The notes under the pieces were generated by a model. The model was not told where the DNA came from. It saw only the letters and a program-made list of their open reading frames with translations, and did no database searches. From Limnohabitans sp. T6-5 (lineage in GTDB: Bacteria; Pseudomonadota; Gammaproteobacteria; Burkholderiales; Burkholderiaceae_C): DNA of 64,000 bases. Position numbers and translations under genes: made by a program. Of this stretch, positions 14,101 through 47,321 are shown in pieces. Location: contig NZ_NERV01000002.1 in NCBI RefSeq assembly GCF_003063315.1, positions 744,001 through 808,000 on the forward strand. Reading direction: 5' to 3'. How positions within the stretch are numbered: position 1 is the first letter of the stretch; the number at the start of each line of letters is the position of its first letter.

Positions 14101-14203
14101 GTAGGTCGGTGGTCAAAGACCCCGACATCTTTGCAGCGACGTGCAATGCCCATGCAAGCCTTGTCTGCCACGCCAAACGTCGGACTCTTCGTATGCCGAC
14201 CTG
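14101..14203. repeat. Hairpin repeat pair between radC and the PfkB kinase gene
   Basis: One copy at 14101-14127 begins GTAGGTCGGTGGTC and ends GACCCCGAC. A second, at 14179-14203, begins GTCGGACTC and ends GCCGACCT. They belong to the dispersed family that also forms the tandem array at 43934-44985. The 233-base gap 14056-14288 holds nothing else recognised. Confidence 0.8.
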
Positions 14204-14288
14204 CCAGGCGCAATGTAAACATCGACGGCGAATCGGCCCCGACCAGGACGCACCGGTAAACTCGCTGCTTTTGATTCCCGCACAGGCC

Positions 14289-35357: not shown

Positions 35358-35588
35358 GTCGGGGCTGAAGCCACCGACCTGCGCGTTGTTTGCAGGTTGG
35401 CGGTCGAAGACCCCGACGTGCTGGCTCAAGCCCTCTCGCTCATGCGGGGAATAGCGGTAAATCGACCCAACGTCGGACTCTGCGAGTACCGACCTACGGG
35501 GTATTTGTAGCTCGGCAGACGAAGAACAGCATTTAGGTTCGCGGTCAAAGGACCGCATTTGTAGGTCGGTGGTCGAAGACCCCGACAT
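35358..35588. repeat. Cluster of five hairpin repeat copies
   Basis: Copies lie at 35358-35382, 35392-35418, 35472-35498, 35534-35558 (with altered arms, GGTTCGCGGTC/GACCGC) and 35561-35588. Both stem variants and both orientations occur. They occupy most of the 35345-35650 gap. The last 60 bases before the ligase stop could encode AYTKPTNGGTETTYKIQVIG in the plus direction, perhaps a gene scrap. Confidence 0.8.
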
Positions 35589-42774: not shown

Positions 42775-43929
42775 ATGCCCGGATTGCTGCCTCAAATCGA
42801 CCCCGATGGTCTGCTCGAATTTTCGGTGGTCTACACCGACCGCGCCCTGAACCACATGTCGCAACGCTTTCAAGGCGTGATGACTGACATTTCGGGTCTG
42901 CTCAAAAAGGTCTATAGCGCCCACAGCGTGGCGCTGGTGCCCGGCAGCGGCACTTTTGGCATGGAATCTGTCGCCCGCCAGTTCGCCACCGGCCAACACG
43001 TCATGGTGATCCGCAACGGCTGGTTCAGCTTCCGCTGGACGCAGATTTTTGACATGGGCCAGATCCCCAAAAGCCACAGCGTGCTCAAGGCTCGGCGCAT
43101 TGCCGAAGGCTCGCAAGCCGCTTGGGCACCTGCCCCGATTGCCGAAGTGACCGCTGCGATTGCCTCAGAAAAACCCGCTTTGGTATTTGCGCCGCATGTG
43201 GAAACCGCAGCCGGCATGATCTTGCCCGACGATTACCTGAAGGCTGTGGCTGACGCCGTTCACGCCGTGGGTGGCTTGCTGGTGCTGGACTGCATCGCCT
43301 CGGGCGCCATGTGGGTGGACATGCAAGCCACCGGCGTGGACCTGCTGATCAGCGCACCGCAAAAGGGCTGGAGCAGCTCGCCTTGCTGCGCCATGGTCAT
43401 GCTGAGCGAACGGGCCCGCCAAGCCATAGACGCCACCACCAGCACCACTTTTGCGATGGATCTCAAAAAGTGGTTGCAAGTGATGGAAACCTACGAAGGC
43501 GGTGGCCACATGTACCACACCACCTTGCCCACCGATGCCCTGTTGCGGTTGCGTGATGCGATGGTCGAAACCGACGCTTATGGCTTTGCCAAAGTGCGTG
43601 ATGAGCAAATCGCTTTGGGCCGCGCTGTGCGCCAGCTGCTGGCTGAGCGAGGATTCCCGAGCGTGGCCGCCTCTGGCTTTGAAGCGCCCGGCGTGGTGGT
43701 CAGTTACACGACCGACCCCGACATCCAGTCCAGCAAGAAGTTTCTGGCCGAAGGCTTGCAAACGGCCGCCGGTGTGCCCTTGCAGTGCGACGAGCCCGCC
43801 GACTTCCGCACCTTCCGAATGGGCCTGTTTGGCCTGGAAAAGTGGCACAACGTGCAGCGCACGCTGCAACAGTTGCGCGTGGCACTGGACAAAGTCGCGC
43901 CCGCTGAAGTGGAAAAATTAGCGGCGTGA
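42775..43929 (+). CDS. Class V aminotransferase (PLP enzyme)
   Basis: 384 residues, fold-type I. LVPGSGTFGMESVARQFATG is the cofactor phosphate-binding part and LLVLDCIASGAMWVDMQATG includes the Asp contacting the pyridine. The PLP Lys is in LLISAPQKGWSSSPCCAM. It resembles alanine/serine-glyoxylate and related aminotransferases of the class V family. The substrate is not evident. GGAG precedes the ATG. It is followed directly by the tandem repeat array and appears monocistronic. Confidence 0.9.
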   Translation: MPGLLPQIDPDGLLEFSVVYTDRALNHMSQRFQGVMTDISGLLKKVYSAHSVALVPGSGTFGMESVARQFATGQHVMVIRNGWFSFRWTQIFDMGQIPKSHSVLKARRIAEGSQAAWAPAPIAEVTAAIASEKPALVFAPHVETAAGMILPDDYLKAVADAVHAVGGLLVLDCIASGAMWVDMQATGVDLLISAPQKGWSSSPCCAMVMLSERARQAIDATTSTTFAMDLKKWLQVMETYEGGGHMYHTTLPTDALLRLRDAMVETDAYGFAKVRDEQIALGRAVRQLLAERGFPSVAASGFEAPGVVVSYTTDPDIQSSKKFLAEGLQTAAGVPLQCDEPADFRTFRMGLFGLEKWHNVQRTLQQLRVALDKVAPAEVEKLAA

Positions 43930-43933
43930 TGAA

Positions 43934-44985
43934 GACATGTCGGACTCTGCGAGTGCCGACCTACGGGGGACATGCCATTCGCAGGTCGGTGGTCGAAGAG
44001 CCCGACGTTGGCTCGCTTGGCTGTGACGCCTAAACAAGCGATGTCTGTGATTTGAGACATGTCGGACTCTTCGAGTGCCGACCTACGGAGGAAATGCCGT
44101 TCGCAGGTCGGTGGTCGAAGACCCCGACGTTGGCTCGCTTGGCTGTGCCGCCTAAACAAGCGATGTCGGTGATTTGAGACATGTCGGACTCTGCGAGTGC
44201 CGACCTACGGGGGACATGCCATTCGCAGGTCGGTGGTCGAAGAGCCCGACGTTGGCTCGCTTGGCTGTGACGCCTAAACAAGCGATGTCTGTGATTTGAG
44301 ACATGTCGGACTCTTCGAGTGCCGACCTACGGAGGAAATGCCGTTCGCAGGTCGGTGGTCGAAGACCCCGACGTTGGCTCGCTTGGCTGTGCCGCCTAAA
44401 CAAGCGATGTCGGTGATTTGAGACATGTCGGACTCTGCGAGTGCCGACCTACGGGGGACATGCCATTCGCAGGTCGGTGATCGAAGACTCCGGCGTTGGC
44501 TCGCTTGGCTGTGCCGCCTAAACAACCTATGTCGGTGATTTGAGACATGTCGGACTCTGCGAGTGCCGACCTACGGAGGACATGCCATTCGCAGGTCGGT
44601 GGTCGAAGACTCCGGCGTTGGCTCGCTTGGCTTTGACGCCTAAACAAGCGATGTCGGTGATTTGAGACATGTCGGACTCTGCGAGTGCCGACCTACGGAG
44701 GAAATGCCATTCGTAGGTCGGTGGTCGAAGACCCCGACGTTGGATCGCTTGGCTGTGACGCCTAAACAAGCGATGTCTGTGATTTGAGACATGTCGGACT
44801 CTTCGAGTGCCGACCTACGGGGGACATGCCATTCGCAGGTCGGTGGTCGAAGACCCCGACGTTGGATCGCTTGGCTGTGCCGCCTAAACAAGCTATGTCG
44901 ATGATTTGAGACATGTCGGACTCTGCGAGTGCCGACCTACGGGGGACATGCCATTCGCAGGTCGGTGGTCGAAGACCCCGACATG
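43934..44985. repeat. Tandem array of 122-bp units, nine copies
   Basis: Units begin with GACATGTCGGACTC at 43934, 44056, 44178, 44300, 44422, 44544, 44666, 44788 and 44910, an exact 122-bp period; the ninth is truncated at about 44985. Each unit holds one hairpin with inner stem ACTC/GAGT, a 17-18-base gap, one hairpin with inner stem GGTC/GACC, and a spacer of about 60 bases. Units 1+2 appear identical to units 3+4, a 244-bp duplication. The 83-residue reading frames on the minus strand are produced by the periodicity and are not genes. Confidence 0.95.
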
Positions 44986-44999
44986 TGCCCGCATTCGTC

Positions 45000-45983
45000 T
45001 TACAAGGTGATGATCGTGCAACCTGTGGTTTTACGGGCTTCCAAAGCGATGTGCGCATCCTGAATTTGCGCCAGCGGGAATGTCTGGTCAATGTGGATTT
45101 TGACCTTGCCACTGGTCACCGCTTCAAACAAATCATCGGCCATGGCTTGCGTGTTTTCGCGGGTGGTGATGTGGCTGAACAGGGTCTGACGCGTCACATA
45201 GATCGAACCCTTGGGGCCGAGGATACCGGGTGCAAACGGAGCCACCGCGCCGGATGCATTGCCAAAGCTGGCCATCAGGCCAAACGGGGCCAGGCAATCG
45301 AGTGACTTGTCCCAAGTGTCCTTGCCCACCGAGTCATAGACCACCTTCACGCCCTTGCCGCCCGTGATCTCTTTGACCTTGGCCTGGAAATCATCGGTCG
45401 AATAGTTGATGCAGAACTCTGCGCCATTGGACAAAGCCAATGCGCATTTGGCATCGCTGCCTGCTGTGCCGATCAGGCGCAGACCCAGGGCCTTGGCCCA
45501 CTGGCAAGCGATCAGGCCCACGCCACCTGCTGCTGCATGAAACAGAACGAAGTCACCGGCTTGCAGTCCGCCCTGTGGCAAGGTGCGCTTGAGCAGGTAT
45601 TGCGCTGTCAGGCCCTTGAGCATCATGGCCGCGCCAGTCTCGAACGAGATCGCATCGGGCAGCTTGCACACGCACTTGGCGGGCATCACGCGCACTTCGC
45701 AATAGCTGCCTGGGGGCTGGCTGGCATACGCTGCGCGATCGCCCACCTTGAGATGCGTCACGCCTTCACCCACAGCTTCGACCACGCCCGACGCTTCCAT
45801 ACCCAGCTTCAGGGGCATGGGCAGGGTGTACAGGCCGCCTCGCTGGTACACGTCGATGAAGTTCAGGCCGATGGCTTTGTGGCGGATGCGGATTTCACCG
45901 GGGCCGGGTTCGCCCACATTCACGTCGACCAGTTTCATGACTTCGGGACCGCCGTTTTGATCAATCTGGACTGCAAGGCTCAT
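45000..45983 (-). CDS. Quinone oxidoreductase (zinc-independent MDR family)
   Basis: 327 residues from ATG 45983, with CAGGAG before it. MSLAVQIDQNGGPEVMKLVD, EPGPGEIRIRHKAIGLNFID and VYQRGGLYTLPMPLKLGMEA are the GroES-like domain of QOR proteins. The Rossmann part has VLFHAAAGGVGLIACQWAKA (AAxGGVG NADPH motif). It reduces quinones or enones with NADPH. The gene ends 15 bases from the repeat array. Confidence 0.95.
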   Translation of the reverse strand: MSLAVQIDQNGGPEVMKLVDVNVGEPGPGEIRIRHKAIGLNFIDVYQRGGLYTLPMPLKLGMEASGVVEAVGEGVTHLKVGDRAAYASQPPGSYCEVRVMPAKCVCKLPDAISFETGAAMMLKGLTAQYLLKRTLPQGGLQAGDFVLFHAAAGGVGLIACQWAKALGLRLIGTAGSDAKCALALSNGAEFCINYSTDDFQAKVKEITGGKGVKVVYDSVGKDTWDKSLDCLAPFGLMASFGNASGAVAPFAPGILGPKGSIYVTRQTLFSHITTRENTQAMADDLFEAVTSGKVKIHIDQTFPLAQIQDAHIALEARKTTGCTIITL

Positions 45984-46104
45984 GGTGTTCTCCTGTAGGG
46001 GTAAAGCAAACGATGCGTGACTTTGCCACGAATTGCAGCCCATGACAGACCCCAAGGACAGCTGCGCGACAGGGGGAAAACCCGAATACCGATACAGTCG
46101 TCGC

Positions 46105-47004
46105 ATGTCTCAAAAACTCTCTCCGGTCACCGCACTGCTGCTGACCGTCCCCCCCCTTTTGTGGGCGGGCAATGCGGTGGTGGGCCGCATGGTCAGCACC
46201 TTGGTGCCCCCCATCACTCTGAACTTTTTGCGCTGGGCACTGGCGTTTGTAATTTTGGTGCCCATGGCCAGCTGGGTGCTGCGCTCAGGCAGTGGGCTAT
46301 GGTCACACTGGCGCCGCTTTGGCCTGCTCAGTTTGCTGGGCGTGGGCTGCTACAACGCGCTGCAATACTTGGCACTGCAAACCTCCACACCCCTCAACGT
46401 GACCTTGGTGGCTGCCAGTGGCCCGGTCTGGACACTGGCCATCGGCACACTGTTTTTTCACACACCCGTGCGCCGGGCGCAGGCCTTGGGTGCGGCGCTG
46501 TCCATTTTGGGCGTGACGGTTGTCCTGTCACGGGGCGAACCCGCGCAGCTGATGAATGTGCGCCTGGTCGTGGGGGACTTTTTTATCTTGTTGGCTACGG
46601 CTTGTTGGTCAGCCTACAGCTGGCTGCTCAGCCGCAAAGACGAGCCCGACGCCATCCGCCAGGATTGGGCGGCATTCTTGTTGGCGCAAGTGGTGTTTGG
46701 TCTGGGCTGGTCCGGGCTGTTTGCCGGGCTCGAATGGAGCCTGACCGATGCCCACATCACTTGGGGATGGCCCCTGATCGCCACACTGGGCTTTGTGGCC
46801 GTGGGGCCAGCGGTGCTGGCTTACCGCTGCTGGGGCCTGGGTGTACAACAGGCTGGGCCTGCCATGGCGGGCTTCTTTGCCAACCTCACCCCGCTGTTTG
46901 CCGCCATCCTGTCAGCTGCCTTTCTGGGCGAGTTGCCCCATGCGTACCACGCACTGGCCTTTGCGCTGATCATTGCCGGGATCTGGGTGTCGTCGCGGCG
47001 GTGA
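46105..47004 (+). CDS. EamA/DMT family transporter
   Basis: 299 residues from ATG 46105 (MSQKLSPVTALLLTVPPLLW). Ten membrane helices form two EamA halves; PPLLWAGNAVVGRMVSTLVP and LNFLRWALAFVILVPMASWV are typical of the first and FFANLTPLFAAILSAAFLGE of the second. These proteins export or import small metabolites such as amino acids or nucleobases. The substrate is unknown. It is divergent from the quinone oxidoreductase gene, and both lie between the array and an inverted repeat copy. Confidence 0.93.
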   Translation: MSQKLSPVTALLLTVPPLLWAGNAVVGRMVSTLVPPITLNFLRWALAFVILVPMASWVLRSGSGLWSHWRRFGLLSLLGVGCYNALQYLALQTSTPLNVTLVAASGPVWTLAIGTLFFHTPVRRAQALGAALSILGVTVVLSRGEPAQLMNVRLVVGDFFILLATACWSAYSWLLSRKDEPDAIRQDWAAFLLAQVVFGLGWSGLFAGLEWSLTDAHITWGWPLIATLGFVAVGPAVLAYRCWGLGVQQAGPAMAGFFANLTPLFAAILSAAFLGELPHAYHALAFALIIAGIWVSSRR

Positions 47005-47051: not shown

Positions 47052-47321
47052 GTCGGGGTCTTCGACCACCGACCTACGAAAGGCACGTCCCGCAGGTCGG
47101 CACTCGCAGAGTTCGTCATGTATGCGCGCACAAGCATCACCAGCACAGGCCATGCTCACCTTTCGGCAACCAAACGTCGGGGTCTTCGACCACCGACCTA
47201 CGAAAGGCAGCCACCGTAGGTCGGCACTCGCAGAGTCCGACATTTCTCAAATCACCGACATTGCTTGTTCCGGCGTCACAGTCAAGCGAGCCAACGTCGG
47301 GGTCTTCGACCACCGACCTAC
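47052..47321. repeat. Inverted copy of the array unit (five hairpins)
   Basis: Hairpins lie at 47052-47077, 47092-47118, 47176-47201, 47216-47241 and 47296-47321. The stretch 47236-47300 is the reverse complement of the array spacer, including the ACATTTCTCAAATCACCGAC piece. This is therefore a copy of the same unit in opposite orientation to the array. It fills most of the 47005-47378 gap. Confidence 0.9.

Follow-up and report, generated by a model that had tools for sequence, protein, structure and literature searches.

A tandem array of bacterial interspersed mosaic elements (BIMEs) occupies positions 43934 to 44985 of a 64,000-nucleotide stretch of the Limnohabitans sp. T6-5 genome (NZ_NERV01000002.1, 744,001 to 808,000; hereafter the window). 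The array is composed of repetitive extragenic palindromes (REPs) that are paired into REP doublets forming hairpins (REPINs), and it belongs to a GTAG-tagged REP family associated with a REP-associated tyrosine transposase (RAYT). Its expansion is probably recent, and the process behind it is of a known kind. Furthermore, the array is typical for its genome (4.17 Mb, 7 contigs) and not exceptional, since this genome contains 744 REPs, no fewer than 43 clusters with five REPs or more, and a RAYT gene with REPs on both sides. The history that we consider likely leads from one REPIN, through a unit common with a neighbouring cluster, to stepwise growth of the array.

Tandem Repeats Finder reported one tandem array in the window, at 43933-44982, with a period of 122 bp, 8.6 copies, 94% matches and 0% indels. 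Cutting 122-bp slices from position 43934 gave eight full units and a terminal part-unit of 73 nt; a full ninth slice of 122 nt enters the unique flank and differs from the other units at 32-36 positions. Units 1 and 3 are identical, as are units 2 and 4 (0 differences), and the other pairs among units 1 to 8 differ at 5-11 positions. The parts of the array are as follows.

43934 to 44985: tandem array as reported, with 18 REPs making nine doublets (REPINs) and eight spacers; Tandem Repeats Finder bounds 43933-44982
43939 to 44006: first REP doublet, a C-type REP (minus strand), a 16-nt loop and a G-type REP (plus strand); recurs at 122-bp intervals up to the last copy at 44915-44982
44007 to 44060, plus strand: first 54-nt outer spacer, with untagged REP ends on either side; eight copies in 122-bp steps
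43934 to 44177, plus strand: units 1+2, a 244-bp dimer with the same sequence as units 3+4
44178 to 44421, plus strand: units 3+4, exact duplicate of units 1+2
44910 to 44982, plus strand: terminal part-unit from the unit alignment, the final REP doublet without a spacer, followed by unique flank

The 18 GTAG-tagged REPs are of two strictly alternating types (C< G>, nine times), and the repeating unit is a C-type REP, a 16-nt loop, a G-type REP and a 54-nt spacer. The GTAG ends of the two types face one another over the loop, and the untagged ends face the next unit over the spacer. The G-type REP (26 nt) is GTAGGTCGGTGGTCGAAGACCCCGAC and the C-type REP (26 nt) is GTAGGTCGGCACTCGCAGAGTCCGAC; both are versions of a single 26-nt palindrome, GTAG-GTCGG...CCGAC, and are oppositely oriented. 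The doublet folds as one long hairpin (DNA fold z of -6.3 and -5.8 for the two strands, with 0 of 200 shuffles equally stable), and the 26-nt REP pattern, allowing up to three mismatches, matched 15 times in the window versus a mean of 0.00 in 100 shuffles.

A sequence-only reading of the window had described nine copies of a BIME-like unit with an exact 122-bp period and a dimer-sized duplication on top of an older array. Our results confirmed the period and its coordinates, the identity of units 1+2 with units 3+4, and the dimer-sized duplication, which is borne out by the pattern of unit identity. The BIME-like character was likewise supported by the alternation of REP types in regular tandem modules. 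Eight of the nine copies are full units without indels, but the ninth is limited to its first 73 nt. The same reading had given each unit two hairpins of different stem sequence and a spacer of about 60 bases. Two hairpins are indeed present, but their stems are related types of one palindrome that fold together, and the spacing was measured as a 54-nt outer spacer and a 16-nt inner loop.

Other identities were considered for the repeat. The eight array spacers are nearly identical to each other, and the change of spacer between repeats that marks clustered regularly interspaced short palindromic repeats was not found. A protein-coding repeat was rejected: open reading frames (ORFs) of 80-83 aa over the array appear once per unit, each about two units long, and because the 122-bp period is not divisible by three they were judged to be by-products of the repeat. 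These overlapping ORFs (44030-44891, minus strand) could be annotated as false hypothetical proteins. As a structured RNA, the array matched no Rfam family at the gathering score, and a plasmid search for the array returned no match. Elsewhere in the window, matches to group II intron domains (RF02001, RF01998; 9464-9971, minus strand) adjoin a tRNA-Ser(cga) gene.

To place the array in its genome, we used 44 fetched stretches of the same genome (42 around REP matches and two around Y1-type transposase genes) together with the window. Fetched stretches or loci bear L labels, and G026 and G059 denote other genomes of the genus; in all three genomes, stretches were picked for matching the unit or the REP, which biases them toward clusters. 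A degenerate REP pattern matched 744 times on both strands of the Limnohabitans sp. T6-5 genome (reversed-pattern control, 0), with REP clusters present on contigs C1-C6 of the seven, and the first 35 regions, made up of 34 loci and the window, yielded 405 copies of the 26-nt GTAG-GTCGG...CCGAC palindrome. The stretches and window together hold 72 REP clusters with 487 REPs; 43 clusters, a lower bound for the genome given that fetched stretches alone were counted, have at least five REPs, the largest having 27. Neighbouring REPs within these clusters form 415 pairs, comprising 405 inverted G/C pairs, 2 inverted same-type pairs and 8 direct pairs (199 + 208 inverted versus 8 direct). Multi-unit periods were reported by Tandem Repeats Finder at other arrays as well (L036, 261; L046, 388; L048, 239). 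Growth to nine copies had been thought unusual outside a few well-studied genomes, an expectation at odds with the 43 of 72 clusters holding five or more REPs and with the large or tandem REP and BIME clusters published for Pseudomonas, Stenotrophomonas, Xanthomonas and Thauera, as far as the accessible parts of those reports go.

An assembly artefact, with the copy number invented or misjoined, is extremely unlikely. In its favour, four fetched arrays of G026, a genome of about 150 contigs, reach contig ends (L177, L178, L179 and L182), which suggests that such arrays may break assemblies. However, most units of the array differ at scattered sites, the array is assembled into both flanks in a genome of 7 contigs, and other genomes of the genus contain comparable arrays.

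The search for a RAYT-type transposase proposed in the sequence-only reading was successful. Three Y1-type genes were found in the Limnohabitans sp. T6-5 genome. The first encodes a REP-associated tyrosine transposase of 170 aa (NCBIfam NF047646, 8e-53) that matches TnpArep of PDB 4er8 (5e-40), which we take to be the E. coli protein; its HLH aligns with the HMH of 4er8. Array-family REPs lie on both sides of this gene, as they do around its 82%-identical relative in G026. A second RAYT gene (L067:2479-3015, minus strand; 3.6e-50) had no array-family REP within its fetched stretch and may have a separate REP family of its own. The third Y1 gene falls just below the family cut-off (79.6 vs 80 bits). 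Thus a GTAG-tagged palindrome, a high dispersed copy number, inverted hairpin doublets, alternating and regularly spaced tandem modules and a REP-flanked RAYT gene were all found, and under the definitions tested the feature is a REP, REPIN and modular BIME system, and on sequence grounds a predicted REPtron.

Across 60 genomes of the genus, this one included, REPs numbered 744 in Limnohabitans sp. T6-5, 1776 in G026, 154 in G059, and 4, 1 and 1 in three others; the remaining 54 had none. A RAYT of at least 82% identity was present in only two of the 60, Limnohabitans sp. T6-5 and G026, which have the two highest REP counts. Several genomes with RAYT relatives of 53-61% identity have zero array-family REPs, so that these relatives presumably serve other REPs.

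The surroundings of the array were then compared with those of other species. The array lies between two convergent genes, and a second REP cluster lies beyond the right neighbour.

42775 to 43929, plus strand: Class-V aminotransferase-like gene, left neighbour, directed into the array
45000 to 46106, minus strand: zinc-binding dehydrogenase (quinone-oxidoreductase-like) gene, right neighbour, directed into the array (convergent)
47052 to 47321, minus strand: second REP cluster of five REPs, inverted relative to the array and starting about 2.1 kb past its end

Among the best 80 of 586 matches, the left-neighbour protein matched best in named genomes to Limnohabitans planktonicus II-D5 (95%), and of the next twelve (L069-L080) seven carried the label Limnohabitans, three that of Comamonadaceae and two that of Burkholderiales. 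The corresponding junction in L. planktonicus contains a single REP doublet (L068:7165-7226) and no equivalent of the 54-nt spacer, and its flanks are 86-87% identical to the window and collinear with it. In the other 79 of these 80 loci, no array-family REP was found at up to six mismatches, the sequence covered reaching as far as 6 kb from the gene and some contigs ending nearby.

We observed that the inverted cluster at 47052-47321 has a 54-nt spacer to which the array spacers are identical at 46-48 of 54 positions. Since the intervening genes are collinear with those of the sister species although the two sites are inverted, a flip of this DNA is not the source of the sharing. Spacer sharing (at least 80%) was strongly concentrated among nearby clusters of the genome, with 7 of 22 pairs within 6 kb versus 5 of 1631 other pairs (p = 2e-11); a length difference of more than 8 nt was scored as non-sharing, and spacers of 24-27 nt, which account for one near and one far pair, were counted. 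By eye, the orientation strings of the seven near pairs are inverted in four and direct in three; L061 is possibly one split array, and the L054 pair flanks the RAYT gene.

These observations suggest the following course. The starting point would have been a single REPIN between the two convergent genes, the present state of L. planktonicus, here taken as ancestral. The unit with the 54-nt spacer would then have been copied in from, or been common to, the inverted cluster some 2 kb further on, with the intervening DNA staying uninverted; the observed sharing and the collinearity with the sister species underlie this step, the direction of copying being no part of that evidence. Finally, as the identity pattern suggests, the array would have grown by one or more units, including the 244-bp dimer, through unequal exchange or slippage. 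By analogy with its family, the RAYT, an HuH single-strand nuclease and relative of TnpA-REP, most likely provides the copying step and would do so by cutting REP hairpins in single-stranded DNA. The array at this locus is most likely a tolerated by-product of a mobile system and not a specific regulatory device; the role of the RAYT and any benefit to the host are what we infer.

Several observations weigh against this course of events. The 54-nt spacer is recognisable at neither of the two L. planktonicus sites (best, 38/57), and the single REPIN there could be a collapse from an array and not the ancestral state. G059 holds 154 REPs although its RAYT relative reaches only 56% identity. Spacer sharing is not purely local, as five distant pairs of clusters also have spacers in common. 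The window array starts and finishes with a complete tagged-end doublet, as do 12 of the 43 clusters of at least five REPs; 22 of the 43 have such a doublet at one end, 8 at neither, and one is irregular. Most clusters thus start or finish at a lone REP, so that the arrays cannot in general be explained by insertion into a whole REPIN. The spacer motif and narrow spacer length described below hint at some constraint, for which a pure by-product would have no need. Finally, plain homologous recombination could perform both the second and the third step.

This last point leads to a possible but doubtful alternative, in which the arrays arise and spread through plain homologous recombination and replication slippage between REPs, and the RAYT did no more than seed the first REPs and is without a part in the process now. 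Neither duplications of several units nor growth of an array requires a transposase, and sharing between neighbours is also expected of gene conversion between close repeats. However, high REP number tracks the cognate RAYT, though in two genomes only, and inverted neighbours such as those compared between the window and L068 share spacers without inversion between them, which gene conversion would also permit. We keep the course described above as the likelier history.

Matching flanks between clusters of this genome and those of other species gave eight pairs, of which L186/L055 was dropped as the matched DNA does not adjoin both arrays; L179, L188, L189 and L191 were matched on one array side only, and L053 is counted twice. 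Spacer family is common to L179/L036 and differs in L183/L203, L188/L053 and L189/L053; spacer length class differs in L191/L064; and for L192/L038 and L068/window the counterpart of an array is a single REPIN. From these seven usable pairs, a small sample, REP sites seem to persist while the identity of their units changes. An unlikely extension of the RAYT reading is that the mobile entity would be the whole REP-spacer-REP unit and not the 70-bp REPIN, with the RAYT moving a single-strand or circular copy mainly to REP sites within a few kb, where it would replace and multiply the resident unit; the 52-59-nt spacer, with the motif described below, would then be functional, for example as a docking distance for gyrase or the RAYT. 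If true, sites would stay across species while unit identity turns over.

Spacers vary between loci, and their lengths fall into narrow classes. E. coli BIME-2 alternates two joint lengths. In the stretches of Limnohabitans sp. T6-5, 159 of 199 outer spacers measure 52-59 nt and 19 measure 24-27 nt; in those of G026 and G059, 94 of 124 measure 53-58 nt and 24 measure 25-27 nt. Spacers of the short 24-27-nt class, such as ATGGGCCTGTGCCCAAACCCATAAC in L044, build arrays of their own with units of about 90-105 bp (L186, L191, L201:2482-2691 and L044:4088-4532). A spacer family of 55-58 nt with the core GTTGAATCAGG occurs in three arrays of Limnohabitans sp. T6-5 (two in L036, one in L051) and nine of G026 and G059, some at orthologous sites (L179/L036; L188 and L189 through their match to L053). 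Median unit length is 116-131 bp in 33 of the 42 arrays of Limnohabitans sp. T6-5, the others having 92, 92, 93, 107, 113, 137, 146, 162 and 163 bp. Strict helical phasing of the units was unsupported, as this range is wider than one helical turn.

For a motif search, spacers of 45-65 nt from 65 clusters of the three genomes were grouped into 42 families and trimmed by six nt at each end. A 16-nt motif model scored 113, whereas 15 dinucleotide-shuffled sets did not exceed 71.5 and 15 random genome sets did not exceed 77 (30 random starts for the real set, 10 for the controls); in this run the best sites lay within 4 nt of the median offset in 31 of the 42 families. With equal starts, the model scored 104 versus at most 72 in 20 shuffled sets. 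In six-fold cross-validation, 17 of 42 held-out spacers reached p<=0.05 and 25 did not, with best sites in two zones. The shared motif is weak, and it may reflect distant common descent as much as constraint. If the motif is functional, the DNA between REPs would be no passive flank. A third conserved hairpin in the spacer was rejected, since folding was barely above shuffles in Limnohabitans sp. T6-5 (n=45, mean z -0.5, 6/45 with p<=0.05) and in the other genomes (n=15, mean z -0.2, 2/15).

The gene context of 71 clusters, single REPs included, was also examined. Twenty-five were dropped from the count (11 inside a predicted ORF as called by a crude ORF caller, 11 with a distant neighbour and 3 at the end of a stretch), and the 46 classifiable clusters comprised 22 convergent, 17 co-directional and 7 divergent. 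Convergent gaps were enriched, with 22/46 REP clusters versus 16/93 REP-free gaps (Fisher p = 2.4e-4), which fits a terminator role and, equally, tolerance of insertions there. Further REPs lie in the window at 14101-14204, 18619, 28978, 32103 and 35392-35586, three of the five sites being within predicted ORFs. A simple scan of 43700-45300 found no intrinsic-terminator-like or sigma-70-like site.

Of the functions that the sequence-only reading had put forward as possible, namely a gyrase or protein binding platform, a transcription block and a recombination hot spot, two can be weighed against this context. The array could be a bidirectional transcription barrier, or a 3'-end stabiliser for both convergent genes, selected at its site. 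The convergent enrichment and the very stable hairpins of the REP doublets agree with such a role, but the scan revealed no intrinsic-terminator-like site, nine copies are unnecessary where the sister has one, and 24 of the 46 clusters are not convergent, in a count that depends on crude ORF calling; convergent gaps are also the ones that best tolerate insertions. We consider this role quite unlikely.

Decidedly improbable, in our view, is a gyrase platform, in which a unit of about 116-131 bp would place one gyrase that cuts in the spacer with the two REPs wrapped beside it, the arrays being retained for setting supercoiling between convergent genes. According to the accessible portions of the E. 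coli literature, the gyrase motif spans 130 bp with a central 36 bp and BIME-2 elements are cut in vivo by gyrase. The median unit length in 33 of 42 arrays, the weak motif of the 42 spacer families and the convergent context around clusters point the same way. However, the same portions of that literature place E. coli gyrase cutting mainly in y-type REPs and not in the spacer, units are shorter with the second, 24-27-nt class of spacer, and the best motif positions of held-out spacers fall in two zones instead of one. A RAYT-associated array, tolerated where it stands, remains the reading that we prefer.

Models of the origin and growth of REP and BIME arrays date back at least to 2010 (PMC2817692), and a 2021 paper, in its accessible part, still calls the mechanism of REP dissemination unresolved. 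In the Limnohabitans genus, matched sites with one REPIN versus an array, neighbours with traceable unit sharing and dozens of arrays with a narrow spacer length are available together, so that freshwater bacteria offer a way to test RAYT copying against plain recombination. Among the publications listed by a limited literature search, none dealt with REPs in Limnohabitans.

Tandem REPIN and BIME clusters with a co-repeated flank, some of them adjacent to a RAYT, are already described in the available parts of published reports. The GTAG super-family of REPs (PMC3733652, 2013) carries, in the portion consulted, a GTAG tag at one end, as in Limnohabitans; the main text of that paper contains 0 occurrences of Limnohabitans or Comamonadaceae. 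E. coli BIME-2 and TnpA-REP resemble the present system in combining REP types mosaically in BIMEs and in having a RAYT of the same family, and gyrase cutting is demonstrated, within the sources available, for E. coli BIMEs only. For Stenotrophomonas, Nunvar et al. 2010 (PMC2817692) proposed RAYT-driven rolling-circle growth of BIMEs, and the accessible text describes, as in Limnohabitans, alternating REPs, tandem modules and RAYT genes flanked by their own REPs. In contrast, the Stenotrophomonas inter-REP segments are described there as lacking mutual homology and varying substantially in length, whereas most Limnohabitans outer spacers measure 52-59 nt, with a weak motif in common. Tandem REPIN clusters, including RAYT-adjacent ones, are likewise reported in the available part of the study on Pseudomonas fluorescens SBW25 (Bertels and Rainey 2011, PMC3116915), which gives 16 clusters, the largest with four REPINs and one REP, and other REP arrays of up to 12 REPs. 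Compared with these figures, the Limnohabitans arrays are larger, with up to 27 REPs and at least 43 clusters of at least five. The feature is well described in kind, and it differs in its scale, in the regularity of its spacer length together with a weak spacer motif, and in the local sharing of its units.
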